Source of the DNA: an uncultured Bacteroidales bacterium
Lineage (GTDB): Bacteria > Bacteroidota > Bacteroidia > Bacteroidales > Paludibacteraceae
Assembly (NCBI GenBank): GCA_903901975.1
Contig: CAIUTB010000126.1
Location: 1-64,000 of the forward strand
Length of the DNA stretch: 64,000 nt
Direction of reading: 5' to 3'
Numbering within the stretch: the stretch's first letter is position 1; the number at the start of each line of letters is the position of its first letter. Shown here one piece after another: positions 40,384 to 46,850 of this stretch. The position numbers were made by a program, and so were the translations under genes. The notes under the pieces were generated by a model, which ran no database searches, was not told where the DNA came from, and worked only from the letters and a program-made list of their open reading frames with translations.

Positions 40384-40393
40384 CAATAAATAG

Positions 40394-40451: not shown

Positions 40452-40526
40452 CGGGGTGTAGCGCAGTCCGGTTAGCGCACCTGCTTTGGGAGCAGGGGGT
40501 CGTGGGTTCGAATCCCGCTACCCCGA
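40452..40526 (+). tRNA. tRNA-Pro (anticodon TGG)
   Basis: A 75-base cloverleaf: acceptor CGGGGTG with TACCCCG (one G-T pair), D stem GCGC/GCGC, anticodon stem CCTGC/GCAGG with the 7-base loop TTTGGGA (anticodon TGG), variable loop GGGTC, T stem GTGGG/CCCGC with loop TTCGAAT, discriminator A. CCA is not encoded. The 3' part from the variable loop on is duplicated 384 bases downstream. Confidence 0.95.
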
Positions 40527-40570
40527 CTTGAAAATCAGCCACTTACAGTAAAATGTATGTGGCTGATTTT
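40497..40570 (+). repeat. Direct repeat copy 1 (tRNA 3' end plus terminator)
   Basis: 74 bases from the tRNA variable loop through GGCTGATTTT; identical to 40881-40954. Confidence 0.9.
40531..40570 (+). terminator. Terminator of tRNA-Pro
   Basis: AAAATCAGCCAC (40531-40542) pairs with GTGGCTGATTTT (40559-40570), with TACA/TGTA inside. It starts 5 bases after the tRNA. Confidence 0.8.
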
Positions 40571-40873: not shown

Positions 40874-40910
40874 AACGGGAGGGTCGTGGGTTCGAATCCC
40901 GCTACCCCGA
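40838..40910 (+). pseudogene. Defective tRNA-like sequence (chimeric tRNA-Pro copy)
   Basis: The 3' half from the variable loop on is identical to tRNA-Pro. The 5' part has a D arm (GCGC/GCGC) and an anticodon stem TCCCG/CGGGA, but the loop TTAGAA has only 6 bases and the acceptor 5' strand CAACGGA does not pair with TACCCCG. It cannot form a normal tRNA. Confidence 0.75.
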
Positions 40911-40954
40911 CTTGAAAATCAGCCACTTACAGTAAAATGTATGTGGCTGATTTT
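40881..40954 (+). repeat. Direct repeat copy 2 (tRNA 3' end plus terminator)
   Basis: Perfect 74-base copy of 40497-40570. It is followed by TTGCATACTTTTTGCATACT, in which GCATACT occurs twice 12 bases apart. Confidence 0.9.
40915..40954 (+). terminator. Duplicated terminator downstream of the tRNA-like sequence
   Basis: Same stem as at 40531-40570; here the T-run is longer (to 40956). Confidence 0.75.
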
Positions 40955-41030: not shown

Positions 41031-41064
41031 AAGCCTGAGTTAAAATAACAATTAACTCAGGCTT
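41031..41064 (-). terminator. Terminator of the NRAMP-like gene
   Basis: AAGCCTGAGTTAA (41031-41043) pairs perfectly with TTAACTCAGGCTT (41052-41064); on the minus strand TTTTGTTTTT follows. It lies 18 bases after the NRAMP-like stop. Confidence 0.8.
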
Positions 41065-41082
41065 AATCAATACGTTTGCACT

Positions 41083-42345
41083 TTAAAAGAACGAAGATAT
41101 AAATAAGGTTATAGTAAGTCCAATCAGAACAGAAATAGTAAACCAGCCAAAGATATTCTGTACTTTGTTATTCACATAGCTACCCATTACTTCTTTGTTG
41201 TTGACAATCAGAATCATACAAATTAAAACCACCGGTAGCAGAATACCGTTTGCTACCTGCGACCACAAGGTTATTAGAATTAATGGGGCATTCGGTATTA
41301 ATATTATAGCTGCACCAATAATTATTATTGAGGTAAATAACCAGTAAAATTGTGGAGCTTCTTTCCATTTTTTATCAATACCTGCCTCAAAACCAAAGGC
41401 TTCACATACATAAAATGCTGTTGCTACCGGTAAAATAGTAGCTGAGAAAATGGAGGCAATAAATAATCCAAAAGCAAAGGTTATTGAAGCCAAACTACCG
41501 GCAATAGGTTTTAACGCCATGGCAGCATCTTTTGCTTCTTCAATTCTGATTCCTTTTTCGTGAAGTGTCGAAGCACAAGCCACAATAATGAAAAATGCGA
41601 CAGTGACAGTTATCAAACTTCCAATAATCAGATCGGCAAGTGTATATTTATATTCGGTAATTTTAATTCCCTTTTCAATTACAGCAGATTGCATATAGAA
41701 CTGCATCCAGGGCGCAATGGTGGTACCAACAATACCTATTACAATGGTCAGATATTCCTTATTATATTGTATATCCGGTTTAATCATTGCCTGACCGATT
41801 TCGTGCCAATGAGGTTTCCCTATCAATGCAGAAACGACATAGACCAACAAAAATGCACTGAAAATAAGAAATATACGTTCACTAAATTTATAAGTTCCTT
41901 TTACCACCAACCACCATACTAAGAGAGCTGAAATTGGCACACTTATATATTTACTAATATTAAAAACCTGCATACTTCCGGCAACACCGGCAAATTCAGT
42001 GGTTGTATTGCCAATATCAGCAATTAAAAGACCCACAAAAATGAAAAAAGTGATTTTCACACCGGCATTTTCCCGAATTAAATCAGCCAATCCTTTTCCG
42101 GTAACAATTCCCATTCGAGCATTCATTTCCTGAACCACTACTAATACCAGGAATGCGGGAATCATTGTCCAAAGCAGGTTATAACCATATAATGCACCGG
42201 CTACTGAATAAGTCGTAATACCACCGGCATCGTTATCTACACTACCGGTCACAATTCCTGGTCCAAGAATCGCTAAAAACAACAAAAAACTTCTAAAAAT
42301 GGATTTACGTCGTCGGTTGAATTCTTTGTAATTAATTAACGCCAT
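41083..42345 (-). CDS. NRAMP-family divalent cation transporter, NRMT-like variant
   Basis: A 420-residue inner-membrane transporter with about 11 hydrophobic segments, LeuT fold. The NRAMP site motifs are altered: the first-helix DPGN is replaced by DNDAGG (37-42), and the sixth-helix MPH by APW (211-213), so the methionine that favours Mn2+/Fe2+ over Mg2+/Ca2+ is alanine here. Such replacements are known in NRAMP-related Mg2+ transporters, so Mg2+ is the favoured substrate (inference). Its start overlaps the end of the MgtE-like gene by 10 bases, indicating translational coupling with a likely Mg2+ sensor. Confidence 0.85.
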   Translation of the reverse strand: MALINYKEFNRRRKSIFRSFLLFLAILGPGIVTGSVDNDAGGITTYSVAGALYGYNLLWTMIPAFLVLVVVQEMNARMGIVTGKGLADLIRENAGVKITFFIFVGLLIADIGNTTTEFAGVAGSMQVFNISKYISVPISALLVWWLVVKGTYKFSERIFLIFSAFLLVYVVSALIGKPHWHEIGQAMIKPDIQYNKEYLTIVIGIVGTTIAPWMQFYMQSAVIEKGIKITEYKYTLADLIIGSLITVTVAFFIIVACASTLHEKGIRIEEAKDAAMALKPIAGSLASITFAFGLFIASIFSATILPVATAFYVCEAFGFEAGIDKKWKEAPQFYWLFTSIIIIGAAIILIPNAPLILITLWSQVANGILLPVVLICMILIVNNKEVMGSYVNNKVQNIFGWFTISVLIGLTITLFISSFF

Positions 42346-43631
42346 GATAATCCGCCTTTCTTCGTTTTGCGTTTTGACATTAAATCTTCAACAATATCGT
42401 CAATTACGACCATACCAACCAATGTATTTACAGCATCAGTAACCGGAATGGCAAGTAAATCATACTTTAATATAATAGCAGCCAGTCTGTCAGCTTTATC
42501 TTCATCCTGAACACTGATAAATTCGGTATTCATTATTTCTTTAAGGGTCATTGTAGGCAATGAAATTACAAGGTCACGAAGTGAAACTGTAGCTATCAGT
42601 TTTTCATTAGTATCAGTAATAAACAACGAATAAATCATGTCTGCTTCCGGTTGTTGTTTCCGCAATTCTGATAATGTTTCATCAACAGTCATTGTTTCCA
42701 GGAATGACAAGAAATCCGTTGTCATCAAACTTCCCACTTCTTTATCCTCGTATTCAAGTAGTTCACGAACATCTTCCGAAGATTCTTTCTCCATTTCGTT
42801 GAGAATCAGTTCCACCTTATCATCTTCCAACGTGTCAAGTAAATCGGCAACCTCATCTGCAGGCATTTTCTCCAGTACATCGGCAGCTTTTTCAATAGAC
42901 AGACTTTCAATAATTTGTGCCTGTGCGTAAGGTTCCATTTCTTCCAACACATCAGCTGCTTTTTCCTCATCCAATGATTCGAAAATCTTTGTACGGGAGG
43001 CAGCACCCATTTCTTCAATAATATCGGCTAAATCGGAAGGATGTAATTTGTGAAGTTTGTTGGAATCGAGCGAAAGTTTAATGTTGAAATTTGACGTATC
43101 AAGTGCCTGTACATCATCCCACAAAATAAAGTTGGTTTCGAGAGCAATGTTGAATATATTGAGGAATTTCGTCAGAATTTCAGAAACTCCAAGTCGACGT
43201 AATAAGCCTTTGGTACTGACATCAACGGCAATAACAAAGGTGCCGGAATCAATTGAAACCAATCGAATATCATTTACCCGAACTAGTTTGCGTCCATTGA
43301 TGTCTACAATTTGACGGTCAAGAATATTCTTTGCCAAAGGTAATGAACTCTCAATAGTTGAAGTTTCAAGATCTACTGTTTTAGAACAAATAAACTTAAA
43401 TTTTTTCTGATTTCCGGAAATTTTGAAATAGTCATAGTTCAAATATCGAACCTCACCATTAATTTTAGTTTTAAGTCCTACAAATGCCGGTCTGAAAACC
43501 TCATCTTTATTAAGATTTTCTTGATGTGCATTTACATATATTTCTATGACTTTGCCTAATTGAGCTCCGTTTAGGTCATAGAGCTTACAGCCAATTATTT
43601 GGCTTAAGTAAAATGTAATTTGTGATGTCAT
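42336..43631 (-). CDS. Soluble MgtE-like sensor: PRC-type N-terminus, MgtE_N, two CBS domains
   Basis: A 431-residue cytoplasmic protein without membrane helices. Order: two PRC-barrel-like halves (about 8-90 and 105-190), an MgtE N-terminal helical superhelix (about 195-300, with repeated KAADVLEEM/KMPADEVADLLDTL units), and a CBS pair (about 301-425). In MgtE the N and CBS domains bind Mg2+ and close the pore; here the pore is absent and an NRAMP-type transporter gene overlaps its 3' end, so it probably regulates that transporter. The ATG at 43631 is chosen because a strong AAAGGAGGTGA lies 5 bases before it and a GTG at 43637 is inside that sequence. Confidence 0.88.
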   Translation of the reverse strand: MTSQITFYLSQIIGCKLYDLNGAQLGKVIEIYVNAHQENLNKDEVFRPAFVGLKTKINGEVRYLNYDYFKISGNQKKFKFICSKTVDLETSTIESSLPLAKNILDRQIVDINGRKLVRVNDIRLVSIDSGTFVIAVDVSTKGLLRRLGVSEILTKFLNIFNIALETNFILWDDVQALDTSNFNIKLSLDSNKLHKLHPSDLADIIEEMGAASRTKIFESLDEEKAADVLEEMEPYAQAQIIESLSIEKAADVLEKMPADEVADLLDTLEDDKVELILNEMEKESSEDVRELLEYEDKEVGSLMTTDFLSFLETMTVDETLSELRKQQPEADMIYSLFITDTNEKLIATVSLRDLVISLPTMTLKEIMNTEFISVQDEDKADRLAAIILKYDLLAIPVTDAVNTLVGMVVIDDIVEDLMSKRKTKKGGLSWR

Positions 43632-43633
43632 TG

Positions 43634-43644
43634 TCACCTCCTTT
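43634..43644 (-). promoter_or_regulatory. Strong Shine-Dalgarno sequence of the MgtE-like gene
   Basis: AAAGGAGGTGA on the minus strand, an almost perfect complement of the 16S rRNA 3' end, 3-5 bases before ATG 43631. Unusual here, where most starts have none; it fixes the start codon. Confidence 0.8.
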
Positions 43645-43780
43645 TTTTGTAGATTTAGAAGGTTGACTGAGGGATAGAACTAACAGACGACCTTTTAAAT
43701 CAGGATGATTTTTACTAAATTTCGTATCGCAGGGTCGTCGTCCATTATGGATTGTTATTTATTTTTACGGTGCAAAGGTA
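43645..43780 (-). promoter_or_regulatory. Promoter and long structured leader of the MgtE-like/NRAMP operon
   Basis: A TACCTTTG box (43780-43773) is followed by a leader of about 130 bases. GACGACC near 43735 can pair with GGTCGTC near 43688, closing a loop of about 40 bases upstream of the strong ribosome-binding site. A Mg2+-responsive element would fit the operon, but the leader lacks the conserved pieces of the M-box that I know. Confidence 0.4.
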
Positions 43781-43878: not shown

Positions 43879-44859
43879 TTAAATAGTTTTATTCTTCCAT
43901 ACTAAAAGATTATGAAACAACTGAGCCAAACCAAATAGCCTGTAACGAACTAAGGTCAACATCAGTTTTTCACCTTTTCTGAACGTAGAAAAGCAATATT
44001 TTTCTTCGTCAATAAAAATATTGGCATACTCTTTTCTAAGCTTCGAAGAATGGGTGTCAATCATCAAACGTACTTTGCTTTGTGTTTTTGGTAAAGCCAG
44101 AATCGACTCATATTTTTCATATTCATTATGTTCTCGCAGAAAATCATCGAATAAATTCCAAAAAGTTACAACATTTTCAAAATGCATCCGTGTTTTGTTC
44201 TTGGTGATGGCCAGTGAGTTATAATGAACATAATGATAGAAAGCTTGGTTAATTTTTACAATAATTTTGGCAAAATAATATAATCTGGACATAATATGAC
44301 GGTCTTCATAATAGTTTAAGCCATTAGGTACCCTGCAATCAGGCCGGAGGTAAAGTTCACGACGAACAAGTTTATTGCACAAAAAAGTATGAGAATGGTC
44401 ATTCAAAATAATATCTGCAAAGTGCTCATTTTCATTTTCAGATAGATAATCTACAACGATTTCTGTGTAGCCAGTATATTCCATTATCATATCTGATATG
44501 ACTATATCTGCATCTGTTTCAATGGCTTTTTTATACATAGTTTCGATCATGTCAAATTCAATATAATCGTCACTATCAACAAAAGATATGTATTCGCCAG
44601 AAGCAATTTGTAAAGCTTCATTTTTTGAGAAAGCTGTTCCCTGGTTATTTGAATGCTGTAGTATTTTAATGTTATTACTTCGATTTGGGAATTTTTCCAT
44701 CAAGCTTTCCAGTTTTTCCATACTGTCGTCGGGTGTAGCGTCATTTACAAATATAAACTCAATCTCTTCAAATGTTTGATTGAAGAGGCTTTCAGCACAT
44801 CGTTCGATGTAGTTTGAAACCTTGTAAACCGGAACCAGTATGGATACTTTTGGAGTCAT
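43879..44859 (-). CDS. Family 2 glycosyltransferase (third of three tandem copies)
   Basis: Transfers a sugar from a nucleotide donor during surface polysaccharide assembly on the inner face of the membrane. A 326-residue GT-A protein: KVSILVPVYKV at the start, DATPDD, and the metal-binding FVDSDDYIE; the C-terminal third (SKLRKEYANIF, then GEKLMLTLVRYRLF) is shared with the next two genes. Overlaps the previous gene by 4 bases (ATGA). Last gene of the seven-gene operon; donor and acceptor are unknown. Confidence 0.88.
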   Translation of the reverse strand: MTPKVSILVPVYKVSNYIERCAESLFNQTFEEIEFIFVNDATPDDSMEKLESLMEKFPNRSNNIKILQHSNNQGTAFSKNEALQIASGEYISFVDSDDYIEFDMIETMYKKAIETDADIVISDMIMEYTGYTEIVVDYLSENENEHFADIILNDHSHTFLCNKLVRRELYLRPDCRVPNGLNYYEDRHIMSRLYYFAKIIVKINQAFYHYVHYNSLAITKNKTRMHFENVVTFWNLFDDFLREHNEYEKYESILALPKTQSKVRLMIDTHSSKLRKEYANIFIDEEKYCFSTFRKGEKLMLTLVRYRLFGLAQLFHNLLVWKNKTI

Positions 44860-45851
44860 TTTCTCAACAGATTTTGAAAATTTCGTTTGAGAATGAGAGC
44901 TTTGTGTAAGAGATGAGCAAAAATAAAAAACTTATTCCGGATTAATAATAGCATGAGTTTTTCCCCACGTTTGAATTCACTCAAAACTGCAGTTTCTTCG
45001 TTGTAAAACATATTGGAATATTCTTTTCTAAGTCTATATGATTCAGTATCAATCATTAGGCTTACTTTACTCTTTACTTTATTTTTGTTTACATAAACCC
45101 GATACTTCTCAAACAAATTTTGATCCATTAGGAAATTATCGAATAAGTTCCAGAATCTTATAACATTTTCAAAATGCATTTTATGTCTGCTTTTAGTCAT
45201 TGATTTTGCATTTTTATTAATATAATGATAGAATACACCTTCAAGTTTAACGATTTTAGTTGCATAAAAAAATAAGCGTGAAACCACGTGTTTATCTTCC
45301 ATAAAATTTAAACCATCAGGTACCCTACACAATGGATTAGCATATAAGCTTCTTAAAATCAATTTATTCCATAAAACTGTAGTAAAGGTATCATTAACAA
45401 TAAAATCATGAAAAGTTTGTGAACTTACTTCAGAAACAGACTCGCTAATAACTATAGGACCTTCAACATTTTCGATAATATAATCCATAACTACCAAATC
45501 AGCATTTTCTTCGGTTGCCTTATTGTAGAGTTTTTCTATCATATCCGACTCTATATAATCATCGCTATCAACTATAGCAATATATTTACCACGAGAAGCA
45601 TCTAATGCAGTATTACGAGCCGCAGCAAGTCCACGATTAACTTCATGATGTAAAATTTGAACCTGATCCTTCCGTTTAGGAAACTTTTCAAGTGTTCTAA
45701 GTAGTATTTCAATGCTATTATCGGGTGTAGCATCGTTTACAAAAATATATTCAAGATCCTCAAATGTCTGGTTGAATAGACTTTCGGCACATTTCTCAAT
45801 GAAATCCGAAACTTTATAAATCGGAACTAAAACGGATACTTTAAGATTCAT
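44856..45851 (-). CDS. Family 2 glycosyltransferase (second of three tandem copies)
   Basis: A 331-residue GT-A enzyme with the same plan as its neighbours: KVSVLVPIYKVSDFIEKC, VNDATPDNS, VDSDDYIESDMIEKLY and the paralogue-specific MTKSRHKMHFENVIRFWNLFDNF in the C-terminal region. Separated by 12 bases from the first copy and overlapping the third by 4, so the three are products of tandem duplication and are translated together. They may add successive related sugars. Confidence 0.88.
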   Translation of the reverse strand: MNLKVSVLVPIYKVSDFIEKCAESLFNQTFEDLEYIFVNDATPDNSIEILLRTLEKFPKRKDQVQILHHEVNRGLAAARNTALDASRGKYIAIVDSDDYIESDMIEKLYNKATEENADLVVMDYIIENVEGPIVISESVSEVSSQTFHDFIVNDTFTTVLWNKLILRSLYANPLCRVPDGLNFMEDKHVVSRLFFYATKIVKLEGVFYHYINKNAKSMTKSRHKMHFENVIRFWNLFDNFLMDQNLFEKYRVYVNKNKVKSKVSLMIDTESYRLRKEYSNMFYNEETAVLSEFKRGEKLMLLLIRNKFFIFAHLLHKALILKRNFQNLLRK

Positions 45852-45863
45852 TTATACCTATTT

Positions 45864-46850
45864 TTAAGCGTTCTTTGTAATCTTGTTTTTGAAAATAATC
45901 GCTTTTTGAAAAATATAAAATGTTATAAATAATCTATGTCTTAAAAACCATAAAAAACGACGTTCTCCTTTTGAAAAAAGATGTGAACATCTTTTTTCTT
46001 CTTCAAAAAAAATGTTAGCATAAAGTTTTCTTAATTTAAAGTCATTAGTGTCAATCATTAAGCGAATTTTTCTATGAATTTTCGTATAATCCATGTATAG
46101 TTTGTACTTCTCAAAAAGCTTCTTCTCAGTTAGAAATTGGTCGAAGGAGTTCCAAAGTATAACTGTATTCTCAAAATGCATTTTTCCCATTTTTTTTGTC
46201 AATGACTCAGTGTTTCTGAAGTCATAATGATAAAATACTTTATCCATTTTTCGAATAATTTCGGCAAAATAAACTAATCGCACATAAACATAAAAATCTT
46301 CCTGATAATTTAAGCCGTTTGGAATCCGGCATTCTTTCATTTTGTATAAATTGCTTTTCACAAATTTATTGCAAAGATTATGTGACCTTTTTTCAGTTAA
46401 AATATTTAATAAATTTTCATCTTTATCAGCCGAGACAGAATCCGAAATAATTTCACTATGGTCATGATATTGAATTTCCATATTAAACACTACAATATCA
46501 GCATTTTCCAGAATAGAAAAATTAAATAATTCTTCAATAGAGTTAAGTTCAATATAATCGTCACTATCTATAAATGCAATATATTCTCCACTTGAATTAT
46601 CAATTGCAATATTTCTGGATACTCCCACACCTTTGTTCTCTTGGTTTACAATTATCTTCACTTGTTTTTGTCGGTTAGGATATTTTGATAAAATATTTCT
46701 TAATATTTCAATGCTGTTATCGGGGCTTGCGTCATCCACAAAAATGTATTCTATATCCTGAAAAGTCTGTTCAAACAAACTTCTGGCACAACGCTCCATG
46801 TATTTTGAAGCCTTATATACAGGTACTAATATCGATACTTTTGTTGTCAT
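45864..46850 (-). CDS. Family 2 glycosyltransferase (first of three tandem copies)
   Basis: A 328-residue GT-A enzyme: KVSILVPVYKASKYMERC, VDDASPDNSIEILRN, FIDSDDYIELNSIEEL and the shared C-terminal block (MGKMHFENTVILWNSFDQF). It overlaps the flippase gene by 4 bases. Sequence divergence from the other two copies is clear in the central region, consistent with different acceptor specificity (inference). Confidence 0.88.
   Translation of the reverse strand: MTTKVSILVPVYKASKYMERCARSLFEQTFQDIEYIFVDDASPDNSIEILRNILSKYPNRQKQVKIIVNQENKGVGVSRNIAIDNSSGEYIAFIDSDDYIELNSIEELFNFSILENADIVVFNMEIQYHDHSEIISDSVSADKDENLLNILTEKRSHNLCNKFVKSNLYKMKECRIPNGLNYQEDFYVYVRLVYFAEIIRKMDKVFYHYDFRNTESLTKKMGKMHFENTVILWNSFDQFLTEKKLFEKYKLYMDYTKIHRKIRLMIDTNDFKLRKLYANIFFEEEKRCSHLFSKGERRFLWFLRHRLFITFYIFQKAIIFKNKITKNA

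Follow-up and report, generated by a model that had tools for sequence, protein, structure and literature searches.

A predicted Mg2+ uptake operon in an uncultured Bacteroidales bacterium: an NRMT-type transporter, a poreless MgtE-like partner and a conserved leader ORF

The NrmT (or NRMT) proteins, SLC11/NRAMP-related transporters, were put forward by Shin et al. (2014) as a fourth class of Mg2+ importer. According to the main text of that paper (PMC4072509), most members adjoin a gene resembling the N-terminal cytoplasmic domain of MgtE, for which feedback regulation was speculated, and Mg2+ complementation by two Clostridium NrmTs succeeded with this partner left out, so that the partner is not strictly required. 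The metal-site signature of NRMTs has been given as DxxG/TxxA (PMC8806188). For the enterobacterial leader ORF mgtQ, Asp2, Pro4, Glu5 and a stem sequestering the Shine–Dalgarno (SD) sequence have been described; its acidic residues mattered, whilst its proline codon acted through base pairing. Here we describe a locus in 64,000 nucleotides of DNA (the window) from an uncultured Bacteroidales bacterium of the Paludibacteraceae (GenBank assembly GCA_903901975.1, contig CAIUTB010000126.1, positions 1 to 64,000), in which an NRMT gene overlaps a partner gene by 10 bp and a short upstream ORF (uORF) precedes both. We think it rather probable that the two genes form a Mg2+ uptake operon with importer, sensor and leader peptide. 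Searches of the freely accessible literature found no later test of the transporter–partner mechanism proposed in 2014.

The transporter is of the NRMT type by sequence. Its nearest solved relative is EleNRMT (7qia; E 3e-109, 45% identical), and alignment with this protein places the NDAGG motif of transmembrane helix 1 (TM1) at D39-x-x-G42 and the TTIAPW motif of TM6 at T208-x-x-A211, in agreement with the NRMT signature of DxxG in helix 1 and TxxA/T in helix 6. The alignment also identifies E117 as the retained helix-3 glutamate; the first His of TM6 is replaced by Trp, a feature shared with EleNRMT. NDAGG and APW stand where canonical NRAMP (MntH) proteins have DPGN and MPH, and the protein passes the broad Nramp_1 model (77.6 bits over a cut-off of 50) and falls short of the MntH model PRK00701 (145 bits, 430 needed). 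In a quick tree it belongs to a clade of 58 rows (SH-aLRT 98) that includes M-box-controlled relatives from Clostridium, Alicyclobacillus and Desulfosporosinus (66-74% identity); a long-branched member from the Acidobacteriota falls outside it. We predict that the window's protein imports Mg2+. An earlier note on this DNA had read both motifs as they stand, and ORF and Pfam analyses agree with its description of an NRAMP-type gene in 10-base overlap with a gene encoding MgtE_N and CBS domains and no pore.

Pfam recognises a PRC domain (residues 6-35), MgtE_N (196-296) and two CBS domains in the partner protein, with no match to the MgtE pore (PF01769); the MgtE model TIGR00400 gives 156 bits where 233 are needed. 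Pfam, sequence and structure comparison all place a MgtE_N-CBS cytosolic module in the protein. Residues 193-418 match the MgtE cytosolic domain 2yvy at E 4.8e-34, the C-terminal end lies at about the start point of the MgtE plug helix and, in the AlphaFold2 (AF2) model (pLDDT 87.2), the MgtE-like part resembles 2yvy with a target TM-score of 0.82 at 2.3 A and 30% identity (Foldseek). The six acids probed at the MgtE Mg2+ sites Mg4-Mg7 (numbering from PMC5882242) are all D or E in the window's partner. Across 75 partners the acid share at these six positions is 0.88, 0.88, 1.0, 0.17, 0.91 and 0.71, whereas 44 other acidic MgtE columns average 0.51 (Mann–Whitney p 0.028). Residues that bind ATP in MgtE (numbering from PMC5529423) are kept only in part.

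The N-terminal region of the partner was overlooked in the earlier note. Modelled alone (AF2 pLDDT 90.9), residues 1-190 have CdpB1/CdpB2 (8qzo; E 1.7e-6, TM-score ~0.5) as the sole Foldseek entry below E 0.001, with RimM, CdvA and reaction-centre H chains following at E ~0.02; on this modelling the region is a tandem PRC barrel. Residues D105, D121, D137, R145 and R146 within it are invariant in 57 sequences, and a search of the freely accessible literature found no paper that brings PRC barrel, MgtE and magnesium together. In a tree, a single branch (support 99/96) separates the MgtE-like parts of 49 partners from 20 MgtE proteins, which points to one old event, of either direction, and not to a local graft. 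The suggestion that the gating module of MgtE had been transplanted onto an NRAMP-type transporter thus holds only in part; the partner has a tandem PRC barrel as well, and a recent local transplant is ruled out.

The two genes keep company across phyla. We took the best 80 of 580 relatives of the window's NRMT in GTDB genomes, a set in which near kin therefore dominate. The partner gene accompanies the transporter on the same strand at 74 of these loci (73 upstream, 1 downstream), giving the recurrent pairing that the earlier note had asked to be looked for and ruling out chance. At four of the other six loci the NRMT gene lies at a contig end, and in the genomes of the remaining two (L095 and L096) the partner is encoded elsewhere, so that true loss is ruled out in both. 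No single ORF fusing NRMT and partner occurs among the 80 loci, and the reversed order, NRMT first, is found in one Bacteroidota family. The pairing follows the transporter motifs: among Bacteroidota loci with NDAGG and TTIAPW, TTVAPW or TTITPW (window included) the partner is present in the fetched flanks of 22 of 23, the remaining locus ending early, and among those with other Nramp-type motifs in 0 of 8 (flanks 1.5 kb). Flanks in this set, in the partner-anchored Firmicutes set and in the uORF follow-up set below were at most 1.5 kb, except for some loci cut longer.

Searches that began from the partner gave a similar picture. Residues 1-190 had 23 matches in 22 of 198 Bacteroidota genomes, all beside an NRMT gene by coordinates (the NRMT motif itself was seen for 22), and missed one carrier, G177, whose NRMT stands in a cut locus. 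Residues 1-200 of a Desulfosporosinus partner matched 42 places in 39 of 398 genomes of its phylum; of the 30 loci fetched, 28 adjoin an NRMT gene, while the remaining two comprise one next to an APC permease and one with neither neighbour. The mirror-tree correlation between NRMT and partner, computed for 72 pairs with L075 and L036 omitted, is 0.77, a value that shared ancestry also raises, and 0 of 2000 permutations were as high. Seen from either gene, the pairing is almost exclusive.

Some individual loci deserve mention in their own right. In Desulfosporosinus (L136:2484-5909) the gene that follows a second partner gene, within 0.2 kb, encodes not an NRMT but an APC-type permease (AA_permease_2, 647 aa), and neither M-box nor uORF is present; another transporter may here have taken over the partner as its regulator. 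Clostridium manihotivorum (L141:1860-6649) has M-box, partner and an NRMT broken by a transposase-like ORF (by eye). The stand-alone M-box partner of C. ljungdahlii (L139:2324-3597) is split into two overlapping ORFs, resembling the split C. acetobutylicum homologue mentioned in PMC4072509.

Mg2+ control of the operon is indicated by riboswitches. An Rfam scan covered 61 of the 80 loci and 20 of the 30 partner-anchored ones. The M-box (RF00380) was found upstream of the operon at 11/11 loci in the first batch and 3/13 in the second, or, over these two batches, at 14 of 16 Bacillota loci and none of eight from Bacteroidota and Spirochaetota; a further batch gave 3/12 (L094, L101 and a partial match at L099), all in delta-proteobacterial lineages, and the partner-anchored loci 15/20. 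The genome of L095 has separate M-boxes for its NRMT and its unlinked partner; the unlinked partner of L096 lay outside the scan. None of the 28 Bacteroidota loci scanned has an M-box, and one in the window is ruled out at the gathering score.

The complement of other importers points the same way. In the window's genome, which is 98.6% complete, the only MgtE_N domain is that of this partner, CorA and the MgtE pore are absent and no MgtA exceeds the cut-off, the MgtA search returning only a single P-type ATPase ORF, in two weak fragments. At the cut-offs used, NRMT is the only recognised Mg2+ importer of this genome. Among 60 Bacteroidota genomes, with non-carriers classed by search score, and by motif only where the sequence was fetched, MgtE is present in 12/23 NRMT carriers vs 33/37 non-carriers (Fisher p 0.002) and in 0/5 of the closest carriers; CorA exceeds the cut-off in 12/23 vs 30/37 (p 0.023), and neither was found in 5/23 vs 1/37 (p 0.027). 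A two-protein Mg2+ system is thus well supported, indirectly, by the riboswitches, the exclusive pairing, the loss of other importers and the site residues. The earlier note had proposed just this; the idea is right in outline and already in print, because the pair consists of an NRMT importer and its known companion (PMC4072509).

The leaders held a surprise. When 20 Bacteroidota leaders were aligned, a near-invariant ATGGAC was seen downstream of a conserved TACnTTTG box. ATGGAC opens a short ORF (MDDDPAIRNLVKIILI in the window), and an ATG-started uORF of the M[DE]..P pattern stands ahead of the partner gene in 27 of the 29 leaders examined from Bacteroidota (window and same-species copy included) against 0.30 expected from dinucleotide shuffles. 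It is also present in 7/14 Bacillota (0.20 expected), 2/4 Spirochaetota and 1/1 Nitrospirota leaders, those of L057, L099 and L110 being short in this count. GGAG stands 8-13 bases upstream of 8/10 uORFs in these three phyla (by eye). One of four further Bacteroidota carriers has the uORF (G160, MDDDPGG...), as do 18 of the 30 partner-anchored Firmicutes loci, a set rich in near kin and counted without a shuffle control.

The uORF follows the partner and not the transporter. It precedes the stand-alone partners L137, L139, L140 and L160, and is not found ahead of M-box NRMTs without a linked partner or ahead of the APC-linked partner. A stricter pattern has a single match in the window's genome, at this locus. 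Three more genome matches to the uORF pattern (L194-L196) look like chance, and a reversed control pattern matched twice in 30 genomes. A role as a general Bacteroidota mgtE leader is ruled out, 19 mgtE leaders giving two chance-like matches, one of them TTG-started, and 17 NRMT-first operons giving one match. Literature searches aimed at such a leader, at the level of titles and abstract openings in freely accessible sources, returned no report of one. We predict, by analogy, that the uORF encodes a Mg2+-responsive leader peptide; this is the most novel and least proven addition made here.

RNA folding links the leader to the start of the partner gene, an ATG preceded by the SD sequence AGGAGG. 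In 24 Bacteroidota leaders with curated starts (L036b, of the window's species, and L054, whose start is uncertain, are omitted) the partner SD is less exposed than in their shuffled counterparts (0.10 vs 0.20 unpaired; 0/60 shuffle sets as low). In the same 24 leaders, an anti-SD arm pairs more favourably with the SD arm of its own leader than with one taken from another (-13.6 vs -11.5 kcal/mol; 0/5000 permutations). With starts chosen automatically the effect in Bacteroidota is weaker (0.22 vs 0.27 unpaired; 1/30 shuffles as low). That set omits duplicates, L075, L036b, leaders shorter than 300 nt and those without an SD by the script's search; some phyla are consequently thin or missing in it. 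A modelled ribosome at codon 5 leaves the SD more open than one at the stop codon (p 0.012; 26 leaders, omitting L041, in which the script matched no SD, L049, which has no uORF, and L075, which was set aside).

In the mechanism we propose, the NRMT protein would bring in Mg2+, probably partly hydrated, and the partner would serve as the cytosolic sensor, its MgtE_N-CBS part binding Mg2+ at the retained acidic sites. Docked via the tandem PRC barrel, it would throttle NRMT at high cytosolic Mg2+. Transcription would be under the M-box riboswitch in most Bacillota. In Bacteroidota, by analogy with the Mg2+-responsive mgtL/mgtQ leaders of enterobacteria, the Met-Asp-x-x-Pro leader peptide would be poorly translated at low Mg2+, and this would alter access to the ribosome-binding site of the partner gene. 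Across phyla, one Mg2+ operon may therefore carry three levels of control: the M-box in most Bacillota and some delta-proteobacterial lineages, an MD-x-x-P nascent-peptide sensor in Bacillota, Bacteroidota, Spirochaetota and Nitrospirota, and a cytosolic PRC-MgtE_N-CBS gate, with the peptide sensor serving the Bacteroidota where the riboswitch is absent. We offer this wider scheme tentatively and rate it at slightly less than an even chance.

A number of observations weigh against a Mg2+ operon of this kind, and some of them lend themselves to other explanations. As has been suggested for Acidobacterium capsulatum, the transporter might mainly import Mn2+, and the ion sensed by the partner might be Mn2+ or a different one: the NrmT of that species behaved mainly like a Mn2+ importer, rescuing a Mn2+ mutant fully and a Mg2+ mutant only at low-millimolar Mg2+, and drew no benefit from addition of its partner (PMC4072509); EleNRMT, too, moves Mn2+ as well as Mg2+. 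Site Mg5 (D226), moreover, is acidic in only 17% of the 75 partners and the ATP residue F227 is L in most of them, and the MgtE comparison, which used hand-picked non-carriers and carriers related to each other, gives p 0.19 within family f17 alone. The window's transporter, however, groups with the M-box-controlled relatives and apart from the long-branch Acidobacteriota member, and its genome encodes a further Nramp, with DPGN and MPH motifs, and no other Mg2+ importer over cut-off; we regard Mn2+ import as very unlikely to be its main task. That the partner does not gate NRMT directly but acts on other targets, as a general regulator or chaperone responding to Mg2+, would fit the existence of stand-alone partner genes (M-box–partner units L137, L139 and L140), the partner beside the APC permease and the published complementation in which no partner was needed. 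The neighbourhood of NRMT at 28/30 Firmicutes partner-anchored loci and for 23/23 Bacteroidota matches speaks against this, as does the mirror-tree correlation, allowing for shared ancestry, and we judge such a general role unlikely.

Further observations weigh against the leader part of the model. The M[DE]..P pattern was picked after the alignment had been inspected; it is found in 0/6 Ignavibacteriota, 0/9 Thermodesulfobacteriota, 0/6 Omnitrophota and 0/7 other leaders, nor is it present in L049, G156, G097 or the 167 nt seen of G078, for which the script picked the wrong gene. The leader's own arm comes top in just 11/24 cases, and the modelled folding switch is weak, with the SD 0.12 unpaired when free, 0.11 with the ribosome at the stop and 0.20 with it at codon 5. 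SD sequestration does not exceed shuffles in Bacillota (0.35 vs 0.36, automatic starts), and this part of the model is therefore limited to Bacteroidota. RNAalifold on a MAFFT alignment returned no consensus structure, probably because the position of the arms differs from row to row, and the arm-swap test was used in its place. Alternatively, the uORF could encode a translated small protein, or its letters could be held by RNA structure, with no sensing of Mg2+: in the window its GACGACC pairs with a downstream GGTCGTC, codon 2 is GAC in 24/24 Bacteroidota leaders counted, and an M-box-linked conserved mycobacterial uORF of unknown role exists (PMC12810186). Yet among these 24 leaders most variation in codons 3 and 5 falls on the third base while D/E and P stay; Bacillota, Spirochaetota and Nitrospirota encode MDxxP with different codons, and beyond this motif the peptides look dissimilar between phyla (by eye). 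We judge an explanation without Mg2+ sensing somewhat unlikely.

The features of the locus are collected in Table 1. Its promoter element is kept in the leader alignment, and we take TACCTTTG to be a -7 box of the Bacteroidota type, with the consensus TAnnTTTG. Terminator-like sites number two, against 2.2 expected from shuffles.

Table 1. Features of the NRMT–partner locus in the window
Feature	Position	Strand	Details and basis
NRMT-type (SLC11/NRAMP-related) transporter gene, predicted Mg2+ importer	41083..42345	(-)	420 aa; Pfam Nramp 324 bits
Partner gene: tandem PRC barrel, MgtE_N and CBS pair, without pore	42336..43631	(-)	431 aa; Pfam
Tandem PRC barrel of partner (residues 1-190)	43062..43631	(-)	AF2 and Foldseek
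uORF MDDDPAIRNLVKIILI, predicted Mg2+-responsive leader peptide	43695..43745	(-)	M[DE]..P conservation across leaders
Anti-SD arm GTCAACCTTCT	43657..43667	(-)	predicted fold; arm-swap test, 24 leaders
SD GGAGG of partner gene, predicted sequestered	43637..43641	(-)	fold predictions and arm-swap test
Promoter -7 box TACCTTTG (type TAnnTTTG)	43773..43780	(-)	kept in leader alignment
Likely intrinsic terminator 3' of NRMT gene	41031..41064	(-)	13-pair stem and T tract

Upstream of the pair (window 43879-46850) lie three tandem paralogous glycosyltransferase-like ORFs (326, 331 and 328 aa) and then a flippase-like ORF, with functions assigned by eye. On the other side, a 74-bp exact direct repeat (window 40497-40570 and 40881-40954) covers the 3' portions of two tRNA matches, of which the second is weak (34.6 bits); it has the look of a scar left by integration at a tRNA. 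Contig L036, from an uncultured Bacteroidales bacterium of the same species, is 99.8% identical to the window over 7.1 kb, the alignment stopping at window position 40388. Beyond the tRNAs it carries a second, inverted NRMT–partner pair (L036:7143-9697, minus strand; identities 367/420 for NRMT and 324/433 for the partner), also with an MDDDP uORF. This is either a true duplication or a chimeric contig of a metagenome-assembled genome; a second pair was not found in the window's own genome.

If the leader works as proposed, Mg2+ sensing through destabilisation of ribosomes on acidic-proline peptides would reach beyond the enterobacteria to several phyla, and ribosome fragility would be a widespread Mg2+ sensor, layered with a riboswitch or replacing it. 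The tandem PRC barrel provides a concrete docking hypothesis for transporter and partner, and a genome in which NRMT is the sole recognised Mg2+ importer offers a clean physiological case. New here are the near-exclusive pairing in both directions, the genome in which NRMT and partner are unlinked and each has its own M-box, the NRMT-only genome, the PRC module, the single clade of partners and the MDxxP leader.

How, then, does the locus compare with what has been described? With NrmT/NRMT (Shin et al. 2014; EleNRMT, Ramanadane 2022) it shares the DxxG/TxxA site, the NRAMP fold family, the MgtE-cytosolic-domain neighbour and, in Bacillota relatives, the M-box; it differs in having a leader uORF and no M-box, and in the tandem PRC barrel of its partner, the words 'PRC' and 'barrel' having no match in the main text of PMC4072509. 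The partner resembles the MgtE cytosolic domain (2yvy) in its MgtE_N-CBS fold and in most Mg2+-site acids, whereas it has no pore, carries the N-terminal tandem PRC barrel and belongs to a separate clade. Like the mgtL/mgtQ leaders as described, the uORF is short, has acidic and proline codons near its N-terminus and stands ahead of a Mg2+ transporter, but it belongs to other phyla and another operon, has its proline at position 5, travels with the regulator gene and, in Bacillota, is found downstream of an M-box. Mycobacterial rv1805A (PMC12810186) is likewise a conserved uORF downstream of an M-box with an N-terminal proline; it is described there as specific to mycobacteria, lies upstream of pe20 and has its proline at position 7.

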